Positions 5,517-61,235 of a DNA stretch of 64,000 nucleotides are shown here, in pieces. The notes beneath the pieces are model-generated. The model saw only the letters and a program-made list of their open reading frames with translations, did no database searches and was not told the DNA's origin. The stretch comes from Cellulomonas fimi (GTDB lineage Bacteria > Actinomycetota > Actinomycetes > Actinomycetales > Cellulomonadaceae). The position numbers and the translations under genes were made by a program. Every line of letters starts with the position of its first letter. Position 1 is the first letter of the stretch. The DNA lies in NCBI RefSeq assembly GCF_012952065.1, contig NZ_JABCJJ010000008.1, positions 62,001 through 126,000 on the forward strand. Reading direction: 5' to 3'.

Positions 5517-5540
5517 ACAACAACTGAAGAAGCCACCGAA

Positions 5541-5722
5541 CCGCGGCGGGAGAGCCCCGCTGTGCGGGGCGCCGAAGGAGCAACCTCCCCGGGAATCTCT
5601 CAGGCCCCCAGACCGCCGCGGCAAGGCTCCTCTGGAAAGCGACCCTCACGGGTTCACCGACGGTGCAAGCGGGCGCAGCCCGCGAAAGCTCTCAGGTCCG
5701 ATGACAGAGCGGGGAGACATCA
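5541..5722 (+). ncRNA. Tandem glycine riboswitch
   Basis: Two glycine aptamers in series. Aptamer 1 is closed by CCGCGGCGG (5541-5549) pairing with CCGCCGCGG (5613-5621) and holds GGGAGAG, GCCGAAGGAGCAA and AATCTCTCAGGC. Aptamer 2 is closed by CTCTG (5630-5634) with CAGAG (5705-5709) and holds CACCGACGGTGCAAGC and GAAAGCTCTCAGGT, ending GACAGAG. These are the hallmark conserved blocks of the gcvT-type riboswitch. A CGGCGTCC/GGACGCCG hairpin (5730-5747) follows, just before the ribosome site, and is the likely expression platform. Most glycine riboswitches control the glycine-cleavage system; here the target is a transporter. Confidence 0.95.
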
Positions 5723-30595: not shown

Positions 30596-31729
30596 TCAGC
30601 TGCGTCGCGCCTCGCGCAGGTGCACCGGCGGAACGTCGCTGCCTGCGTCGGAAGGGGTGTCCCACGCGGCGAGCTCGAAGCGGTCGCGGCCCGCGGCCTT
30701 GGCGGCGTAGAGCGCGGTGTCCGCGCCGCGCAGCACCTCGTCCACCGAGCGGTCGCCCTCGAACGACGCGACTCCCGCGGAGAACGTGACCGGTGCGCCG
30801 TCGTCGGGCAGCGGGGCCGTGAGCCACTCGCGCCGCAGCGCCTCGAGCGCGGTGACGGCCTGCTCGGGCGAGGTCTGGGCGAAGAGCAGCACGAACTCCT
30901 CGCCGCCGTACCGCGCGGCGTGGTCGCGGCGCCGCAGGAACTGCGCGATGGCGTGACCGAACCGCTCGAGCACGAGGTCGCCGTACGCGTGCCCGCGCGA
31001 GTCGTTGACCGCCTTGAAGTGGTCGAGGTCGCACAGCGCGAGGCAGTCGCCGGGTTGGAGCGCGGCGAGGCGCAGGTCGAGGCCCCGCCGGTTCTCGAGC
31101 GAGGTGAGCGAGTCGGTGCGGTTCGCGCGGTCGAGCAGGGCTGCCGCCGTGCGCTGCTGGGCCGACATCGCGACGAGCACCTCGCTCGACGCGATCCAGA
31201 ACGCGGCCCACACGGCGGTGCGCACGTAGGTCGCGTTGGTGAAGGTGGTGAACATGGACAGGTAGGTCACGAGGGCGAGCGGCAGCAGCAGGCGGCCGAC
31301 GCGCGAGCCGTGGAACAGCCCGGCGTAGCCGAACACGAGCGCGATGACCCCGACGTAGGTGCTCGCGACCCCCTCGGAGGTCAGACCCAGCGCGAGGAGC
31401 GCGAGCAGGCAGGCCGTCGGGAACGCGGTCGACGCCCCGGCGGGCAGGCGCGACCACGGCAGGACGAGGCTGACCAGGAGCGCGGCGGCCATGGCGCCCG
31501 ACACCGCGACGAGCGGTGTCCACTGCGAGCTCTCGAGATCCAGCAGCGGGGCCGTCGTGAGGATCACGGCGCCGGTGAGCGCCAGCAGGGCCCGGCCGGC
31601 CACCACGTCGTCGGTGCCCGTCCGAGCCCACGCCGGCAGGCGTCGCAGCAGGGCGGTCGCGGGCGGCGTGCGCGGGTCGCCGGCGAGGGGCACGCCGGGG
31701 GCTGCACCCGGTCCCGGGTCGGTGGTCAC
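30596..31729 (-). CDS. Diguanylate cyclase (membrane-anchored GGDEF protein), 377 aa
   Basis: Synthesises cyclic di-GMP. About six helices span residues 40-195; the GGDEF domain follows, with LCDLDHFKAVNDSRGH binding metal and RYGGEEFVLLFA as the active GGEEF signature. RRRD five residues before it is an intact product-inhibition I-site (RxxD). GTG 31729 is preceded by TAGGGC, suggesting a leaderless start. No sensory PAS or GAF domain; the membrane region presumably senses the signal. Confidence 0.95.
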   Translation of the reverse strand: MTTDPGPGAAPGVPLAGDPRTPPATALLRRLPAWARTGTDDVVAGRALLALTGAVILTTAPLLDLESSQWTPLVAVSGAMAAALLVSLVLPWSRLPAGASTAFPTACLLALLALGLTSEGVASTYVGVIALVFGYAGLFHGSRVGRLLLPLALVTYLSMFTTFTNATYVRTAVWAAFWIASSEVLVAMSAQQRTAAALLDRANRTDSLTSLENRRGLDLRLAALQPGDCLALCDLDHFKAVNDSRGHAYGDLVLERFGHAIAQFLRRRDHAARYGGEEFVLLFAQTSPEQAVTALEALRREWLTAPLPDDGAPVTFSAGVASFEGDRSVDEVLRGADTALYAAKAAGRDRFELAAWDTPSDAGSDVPPVHLREARRS

Positions 31730-31901
31730 GCTGCCCTATCGACAGCAGGAGCGCTGGTGTGGAGGAGTCCGGCGGGCGAACGCACGCGGCGTGTGCACAT
31801 CTTTCCTCCACAGGGCTGTGCGCCATTCACCGCCCAGACGCACACAGCTGTGGATGAGCCTGTGGGCGAGGAGGTCCGGGGAAAGTCGTCCACGGAAGGT
31901 C

Positions 31902-31931
31902 TTGCGGGCGCTGTCCAGGGGGGGCTAGAAC
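31902..31931 (+). promoter_or_regulatory. Promoter of the structured RNA
   Basis: TTGCGG (31902-31907), an 18-base spacer and TAGAAC (31926-31931) form a plausible sigma-70 promoter directed at the structured RNA, with a start near 31938. Confidence 0.55.
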
Positions 31932-31937
31932 TCTCAC

Positions 31938-32245
31938 ATCGGCCTCGACGGACCGGAGCAGAGAGCGGGGAGACCCGCAGGACGCGACGGGGACCGGGAG
32001 GCCGGGTCGACCGGAGAACGGCGGACCATCTCGACGGGGAGACCCGGAGAGCTGCGGATGACGACGCAGGTGTCCAGACGGTCCGGAAGACCTGATCGTT
32101 CGCCGTCCCGCCCGCGGGCAACCGGGGTGCCGGGACGGAGCCGCACCGTCAGCGCGGCCTCGGGACACCGCCGGGCAACCGGTCCGTGTGACGGACGATC
32201 GACAGCAAGGCCCCTCGGACGCCTACTCCGAGGGGCCTTCGCTGC
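31938..32245 (+). ncRNA. Structured ~300-nt RNA, candidate novel or Ms1-like sRNA
   Basis: No protein gene fits this stretch, but it has a promoter, strong secondary structure and a terminator. ACGGACCGG (31948-31956) is perfectly complementary to CCGGTCCGT (32179-32187), closing the molecule. Inside are GCGGG-GAGA-CCCGC and CGGG-GAGA-CCCG hairpins with GNRA-type loops, a CCG-GAGA-ACGG hairpin, and a CCGTCCCG/CGGGACGG stem. GGGCAACCGG occurs twice. A 13-bp terminator stem ends it at 32239. Length and closed-rod layout resemble the actinobacterial RNA-polymerase-binding Ms1 RNA, but I cannot confirm the sequence family. Confidence 0.6.
32207..32239 (+). terminator. Strong intrinsic terminator of the structured RNA
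   Basis: Perfect 13-bp stem, AAGGCCCCTCGGA (32207-32219) with TCCGAGGGGCCTT (32227-32239), seven-base loop. CAGC before and GCTG after extend it with one mismatch. The oncoming ChaB gene ends at 32413 on the other strand, so the stem could also act for that transcript. Confidence 0.85.
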
Positions 32246-32301
32246 GTTCCAAGGGTAGGTGCGCGGCGTCGCCGGGTCCCGCGTCGACACGCCGTCACCG
32301 A

Positions 32302-32361
32302 CAGCCGCCGGACTGGCAGCCGCCGGACCGACAGCCGCGGGACCGCCAGCCGCCGGACCGC
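32302..32361. repeat. 15-bp tandem repeat, four units
   Basis: Four units of CAGCCGCCGGACCGN (small variations) at 32302, 32317, 32332 and 32347, between the structured RNA and the end of the ChaB-like gene. No gene reads through it convincingly. Confidence 0.75.
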
Positions 32362-32412
32362 TCGCCGTGGCCCGATCGCACGTCAGCCCCCCGGGCGCCC
32401 GGCCGGCACCCC

Positions 32413-32832
32413 TCAGGAGCGCGCCCTCCGGGTCTCCCGGTCGTTCGCCTTCTGGATCGCGTCCACGAGCTCGCCCTTGCTCATCGACGACCGGCCCCGG
32501 ATGTCGAGCCGCTTCGCGACGTCGTACAGGTGCTGTTTCGACGCGTTGGCGTCCACACCGCCCGCCGTCTCGGCCCGGGTGCCGCGCCCGCCGGGTGCCT
32601 TCGCGTCCGACGGTCCCTTCTCGTCCTTCGGTTCCCAGTGGTCGCCGACCTTCTCGTACGAGTGCTTGAGCGCCGAGTACGCCGTGCGGTGCGCGCGCTC
32701 GCCCTCGCCGTACTCCTGCGCCGCCGCGTCGTGCGCCTTGGCGAACGTCCGCTGCGCCTTGGGCTCCGAGCGCTCGAGGGTGCTCGGCAGCTCCTCCTTC
32801 TTGGCCGATCCGCTCTTCGTGGTCTTCGGCAC
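32413..32832 (-). CDS. ChaB-domain protein with Rho N-terminal-like motif, 139 aa
   Basis: Residues about 15-70 match ChaB (ELPSTLERSEPKAQRTFAKAHDAAAQEYG, then AYSALKHSYEKVGDHW). The C-terminus (KQHLYDVAKRLDIRGRSSMSKGELVDAIQKAN) is a Rho-N/SAP-type helical nucleic-acid-binding unit. GTG 32832 has GAGGAG at ribosome-site distance; another GTG lies eight codons upstream without one. Such fusions are common in actinobacteria; proposed roles in stress or plasmid maintenance are unproven. Confidence 0.85.
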   Translation of the reverse strand: MPKTTKSGSAKKEELPSTLERSEPKAQRTFAKAHDAAAQEYGEGERAHRTAYSALKHSYEKVGDHWEPKDEKGPSDAKAPGGRGTRAETAGGVDANASKQHLYDVAKRLDIRGRSSMSKGELVDAIQKANDRETRRARS

Positions 32833-32970
32833 GGCGGTCTCCTCTCGTGCGGGCACCGGTCCACCCCGAGGTGGTCGTACGACCGACGCTAGGCCGACCC
32901 GTACGCACGCGCGCGTCGGCGGCTGGTCAGGGGGCGCGTGAACGCTTCGCGCCCAAATGCCGAGGTGGAG

Positions 32971-60945: not shown

Positions 60946-61054
60946 GGGTGACTCCTGGCGGTGAGCGCGGTGTACGCGGGGGCTGGCGGGTACGCGCTCA
61001 CGGTAGTGGGCGGAGCCCGATGCAGCCCGGTGGCCGGTGTAACCTGGCGGGCGA

Positions 61055-61159
61055 ACGACAGGGGAGCGCCGCTCGGGTCACCGGGCACCAGGCGCTGAGA
61101 GTGCGGTGATCCGCAGACCCTCGAACCTGATCCGGTTTGCACCGGCGTAGGGAGTCGGG
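61055..61159 (+). ncRNA. TPP riboswitch (THI element)
   Basis: The conserved cores GGGGAGC, CTGAGAGTGCGG, ACCCTCGAACCTGATCCGGTTTGCACCGGCGTAGGGA are all present in order; CGAC at the 5' end pairs with GTCG after GGGA to form P1. It controls the thiamine transporter genes immediately downstream. Confidence 0.96.
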
Positions 61160-61235
61160 AATCTCGATCTCCGGGCTCGTCGACGCAGTGCCGCCGCGCC
61201 CTCGGGCCGGGCGGAGCTCGCCGGCGGCCCGGGGG

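Follow-up and report, generated by a model that had tools for sequence, protein, structure and literature searches.

A free-standing structured RNA gene in a gene-free interval

The interval between the GGDEF and ChaB genes of the window (the whole stretch of 64,000 nt that was analysed) raises the question of what, if anything, it encodes. ORF inspection of the window gave no convincing gene between positions 31730 and 32412. The original prediction placed a structured RNA resembling 6S or Ms1 RNA in this gene-free interval, and the interval itself, together with the promoter and terminator proposed for the RNA, was borne out. The elements of the locus are as follows:

30596-31729, minus strand, GGDEF gene, left flank of the RNA, divergent
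31902-31931, plus strand, promoter TTGCGG-18-TAGAAC, same form and distance in homologs
31938-32239, plus strand, structured RNA gene, predicted transcript of ~302 nt, known here from sequence
32207-32239, plus strand, intrinsic terminator hairpin, 13 bp with a loop of 7
32413-32856, minus strand, ChaB gene, right flank of the RNA

The promoter, which a generic sigma-70 scan did not flag, is retained in homologs as TTGC/TTGT..TAGAA/TACAA/TAGAC, and nearly all homologs have a strong hairpin where the window terminator sits. Homologous transcripts span 259-394 nt, with a single outlier of 498 nt that reflects a mis-picked promoter. The minimum free energy (MFE) of 31938-32245 was -176 kcal/mol versus -149.4 for shuffles (z = -4.28), with 0/100 shuffles as stable. 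This fold energy, the covariation described below and the possession of its own promoter and terminator agree with the earlier proposal of a free-standing structured RNA. Just 3´ of the terminator, at 32297-32371, a 15-nt unit, ACCGACAGCCGCCGG, is present four times in imperfect form.

Comparison of homologs supports a three-way junction, a long-range helix and a kissing loop

The likeness to 6S and Ms1 RNA had been based on a closing helix between 31948-31956 and 32179-32187. The two segments are a perfect 9-bp complement in the window, but the helix has no comparative support. When pairing of the two segments was scored across 63 distinct homologs, own partners scored 17.78 and swapped partners 17.76 (z = 0.06), and the proposed likeness is weakened because this helix was its basis. 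In the same kind of homolog comparison, the first 14 nt paired only weakly with the 3´ end (z = 0.91). Among the other elements proposed, the GAGA-loop hairpins are present in the sequence, while the inner stem CCGTCCCG/CGGGACGG exists here but does not keep its form across homologs. Overlooked at that stage were a conserved core, a second long-range helix (P5), a kissing loop and, 5´ of the promoter, an array of DnaA-box-like sites. The structural elements, all on the plus strand, are:

32005-32092, core domain with a three-way junction, supported by covariation
32005-32008/32089-32092, P0
32011-32014/32083-32086, P1
32023-32027/32070-32075, P2
32030-32051, P3 hairpin
32052-32069, P4 hairpin
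32093-32102/32192-32201, P5 long-range helix, closing the 3´ domain (32093-32201)
32103-32138, stem CCGTCCCG/CGGGACGG within the 3´ domain, its form varying among homologs
32140-32158, P6 hairpin with loop ACCGTCAGC, from the alignment of full transcripts
32059-32063 (UGACG, P4 loop) with 32147-32151 (CGUCA, P6 loop), kissing contact by loop complementarity

In a MAFFT alignment of 12 sequences, 92.3% of the cells in P0-P4 were paired, with changes on both sides in 12/23 pairs, compared with 28-43% when the helices were slid. The values for 69 model-aligned sequences were 92.9%, 22/23 pairs and 27-43%, respectively, for an alignment that was fitted to the model and so leans toward it. The MFE structure of the window core reproduces the comparative fold, while the energy by itself is not exceptional (z = -1.63).

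For P5, own partners scored 17.8 versus 15.8 (sd 0.4) for swapped partners (z = 5.05; 0/20000 permutations), and for the kissing loop, own pairs scored 15.0 versus 12.73 (sd 0.45) for permuted pairs over 20 distinct P4-loop classes (0/50000 permutations with G-U allowed, 4e-5 with Watson-Crick pairs only); as the permutations assume exchangeable genomes, both tests are to be read as strong support rather than as exact probabilities. The exchanged loops can be seen directly in homologs, where the P4/P6 loop pairs include UGACGA/UCGUCA, CGCGACG/CGUCGCG, CCGAUG/CAUCGG, UCCGACG/CGUCGGA and GUGUCA/UGACAC. The clear result for the kissing loop came after the search was limited to hairpin loops; with the partner sought over the whole 3´ domain the signal was noisy, the own partner exceeding the swapped mean in 23/68 cases (p = 0.0003 across loop classes). 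Alignment of full transcripts revealed the promoter, core and terminator to be common to all, with variation in the outer hairpins. Collectively, comparison shows the predicted RNA, with its three-way-junction core, long-range P5 and P4-P6 kissing loop, to be conserved.

The RNA is outside Rfam and has a patchy distribution in Actinomycetes

That the RNA was probably a new family had also been suggested, and covariance-model searches against Rfam 15 agree. No family matched in the RNA interval of the window at the gathering cut-off or at a permissive E-value, and none matched the RNA at the gathering cut-off in 20 homologous loci. One homologous locus (L060 2872-2948) scores 31.9 bits against the sodF sRNA family, below its cut-off of 46. 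Elsewhere in the window, a tandem glycine riboswitch with two aptamers (5537-5717, RF00504) and a TPP riboswitch (61050-61170, RF00059) were found.

BLASTN detected related sequence in 31/59 relatives, a count in which some matches cover the terminator only; two order-level loci that look coding (L028 and L029) were left out. A core model built from 12 sequences (R2) matched 151/200 genomes of the family, 61/396 of the order, 25 of these 61 belonging to the window's own family, and 32/395 of the class. With a wider model (R3), matches were obtained in 33/395 class genomes and in only 2/297 genomes of a phylum-wide sample, both from the window's order. A few near-threshold matches and a contig-end match that reads as coding (L137) are probably due to chance. 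The RNA occurs in many soil actinobacteria, and hosts identified by pattern scan include Oerskovia, Isoptericola, Xylanimonas, Antribacter and Puerhibacterium. Dozens of near relatives, including 2/5 sampled genomes of the window's genus, gave no core-model match, implying that the RNA is either absent from these genomes or divergent in them. Genomes sampled from two large families (f22 and f37) likewise gave no match to the core model. At the other extreme, genomes of one genus (g8) carry two copies each (L189/L190 in G120, L192/L193 in G100 and L194/L195 in G140), and in another genome of this genus (G088, L191) the two copies lie ~2.1 kb apart.

The common gene order in the family is TetR - DinB - unknown ORF - RNA - pirin. 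The window keeps DinB and TetR, but its RNA is flanked by GGDEF and ChaB, and outside the family the flanks differ. We rejected a cis-regulatory leader, given that a terminator follows the RNA and that the downstream genes vary in family and strand; the terminator and the differing neighbours instead argue for a trans-acting RNA. In much of the family, the ORF flanked by DinB and the RNA (L043 7690-8691 and its homologs) encodes a conserved protein of ~330 aa that has no Pfam match.

An ordered array of DnaA-box-like sites lies upstream of the promoter

Upstream of the promoter, DnaA-box-like sites occupy fixed positions, at about -97/-98, -85, -53 and -41 from the -35 hexamer. In the window these are:

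31804-31812 and 31817-31825, distal DnaA-box-like pair, TCCTCCACA and inverted TGTGCGCCA, at about -98 and -85
31849-31857 and 31861-31869, tandem DnaA-box-like sites, TGTGGATGA and TGTGGGCGA, at -53 and -41, 12-bp period

For 51 non-redundant homologous promoters aligned on the -35 hexamer, TGTG was present at -86 to -83 in 42, at -54 to -51 in 43 and at -42 to -39 in 45, and 11 promoters have a third tandem copy near -29. The 12-bp-spaced tandem occurs in 41/51 promoters versus 4/968 control windows. In M. tuberculosis and S. coelicolor, TTGTCCACA is the high-affinity DnaA box (PMC4285127). The promoters contain 102 sites that differ from it at no more than one position; these are distributed over 46 of the 51 promoters and correspond to 15.4/kb versus 0.24/kb in the flanks, a 65-fold enrichment. 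The boxes of the window, which read TCATCCACA, TCGCCCACA and TCCTCCACA on the box strand, are weaker than those of most homologs, and the 64-kb window as a whole lacks any site with one or no mismatch to TTGTCCACA. Within the window, only the array upstream of the RNA promoter matches the tandem pattern exactly. A genome-wide search with one box pattern gave two matches, one being the RNA locus, versus one for the reversed pattern, and thus the pattern used there is not significant by itself across the genome.

The oriC boxes of this genome are likewise degenerate; TCCACA is enriched in the dnaA-dnaN interval, occurring five times in 494 nt. Within the 258 nt that precede dnaA in this genome, TGTGGACAA-CTA-TGTGGATCA matches the RNA array in its 12-bp tandem, and a relative (G004) also has the tandem upstream of dnaA. 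The two regions are alike in the tandem but differ in that the dnaA region drives a protein gene. Finally, the array and the RNA appear to travel together, since a separate tandem array is present, in unchanged register, at each of eight paralogous RNA copies in the four g8 genomes. Sequence comparison thus shows an ordered DnaA-box-like array in fixed register upstream of the promoter.

The RNA gene is located near the origin in homolog genomes

As the assembly of the window's own genome is fragmented, origin proximity was measured in homolog genomes. In 30/30 single-contig genomes, the RNA is 77-671 kb from dnaA (some lengths rounded), which is no more than 0.33 of the half-chromosome, with a median of 0.18; with shared synteny these genomes are not independent, so the KS value overstates significance and is no true probability. 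The same pattern holds in three families with different neighbourhoods (f1, f9 and f38). Together, the location of the gene and the predicted array suggest a tie between the RNA and replication control.

Possible DnaA control of a trans-acting RNA

The reading that we regard as probable is that the RNA is structured, free-standing and trans-acting, belongs to a family outside Rfam and has its own promoter under the control of DnaA, the initiator of chromosome replication. Judging from the array, DnaA would bind upstream of the promoter and may activate it or act as a timing switch. As the sites precede the -35 hexamer instead of overlapping it, either would be likelier than simple repression. 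With activation, transcription of the RNA would follow DnaA activity or origin firing. Most speculatively, initiation could be subject to feedback from the RNA, or from the occupied array and the transcription beside it, or replication could be coupled in this way to another process, by analogy with the origin-proximal datA locus and the DnaA-box clusters of other bacteria. More tentatively, and only as a possibility, an undescribed class of structured RNA that is governed by DnaA and feeds back on replication might constitute an RNA arm of initiation control in actinobacteria.

By the features tested, locus position for Ms1 and closing stem for 6S, the RNA does not group with either, and its status as a new family outside Rfam is well supported. 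To our knowledge, a conserved DnaA-box array near the origin has not been described upstream of any other structured RNA family, and the combination of RNA and array is without known parallel. The literature searched gave no report of a DnaA-linked sRNA, and other literature or sRNA catalogues, such as those for Streptomyces and Micromonospora, could contain this RNA. The coupling of replication initiation to gene expression in actinobacteria is, as far as we know, poorly understood, and if DnaA controls the RNA, the locus would offer a direct test of it. Even without DnaA control, the locus represents a well-supported RNA family that is absent from Rfam and has a covarying kissing loop, in several Actinomycetes families.

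The array itself could instead be the functional element, an origin-proximal locus that titrates or inactivates DnaA, with transcription setting its occupancy and the RNA secondary. In E. coli, the datA cluster of DnaA boxes adjoins a tRNA operon, and read-through from this operon tunes its activity; both S. coelicolor and B. subtilis are reported to have analogous clusters (PMC10950094, PMC5742627). The locus described here resembles these clusters in having boxes away from oriC, at the level of sequence, and a non-coding transcription unit that adjoins them, and the origin proximity and fixed register of the array fit such a role. However, the boxes are 5´ of the promoter, so that transcription runs away from the array, and the transcript is conserved and structured, under strong structural selection that extends to the kissing loop. 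Such selection would be needless for a mere transcription unit. We consider this explanation unlikely and take datA-type clusters as a precedent for DnaA-box loci away from oriC but not for such a structured RNA.

More doubtful still is that another factor with a DnaA-box-like site binds the array and that the RNA is regulatory and unrelated to replication. The window boxes are degenerate, and the assignment to DnaA comes from their sequence, which leaves room for such a factor, but the match to the actinobacterial box, the matching 12-bp tandem upstream of dnaA and the origin proximity concur in pointing to DnaA.

Comparison with RNA polymerase-binding RNAs and the Ms1 position

Among structured RNAs, Ms1 (MTS2823 / scr3559) is also a free-standing actinobacterial RNA of ~300 nt, but it is set apart by position. 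Its published synteny, with genes for a HAD-IB hydrolase and an oxidoreductase, covers Cellulomonas, Actinotalea and Oerskovia (PMC9130861). In this genome, that interval is elsewhere, on another contig (L054 4474-4816, 343 nt), next to a HAD-IB gene and an old-yellow-enzyme-like oxidoreductase gene, with CpaE- and TadA-like genes beyond; all but the HAD-IB gene were named from reading translations. The interval is itself conserved in 20/59 relatives, many of which also carry the window RNA. The HAD-IB motif was detected at 0/89 RNA loci versus 10/12 Ms1-interval loci, many of the RNA loci being covered for only ~1.5 kb per side, and the core model gave only chance-level matches on the Ms1-interval loci. 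We therefore rejected an assignment to Ms1 by synteny.

Like 6S RNA, the window RNA is predicted to be structured and encoded by a stand-alone gene that has a promoter and terminator of its own; unlike 6S RNA, it has no Rfam match and a three-way junction and kissing loop in place of a supported long closing stem around a central bubble. CoRP of Corynebacterium is another recently discovered actinobacterial structured RNA, which its published description sets apart as a genus-restricted RNA of 516 nt between tRNA genes (PMC11077062). The least probable explanation is a further RNA polymerase-binding RNA of 6S/Ms1/CoRP-like function, controlled by growth phase with the array setting its expression: its size, strong promoter and terminator, the differences in type between actinobacteria and the fact that CoRP was unknown before RIP-seq (PMC11077062) would fit, but the 6S-like stem is unsupported, a separate conserved Ms1-position interval coexists in the same genomes and the CoRP study found one abundant RNA polymerase-binding RNA type per species (PMC11077062).

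The L054 interval may encode a working Ms1, as we infer from position only. Judged by eye from promoter- and terminator-like sequence, the unit there would be only ~170 nt, shorter than known Ms1.
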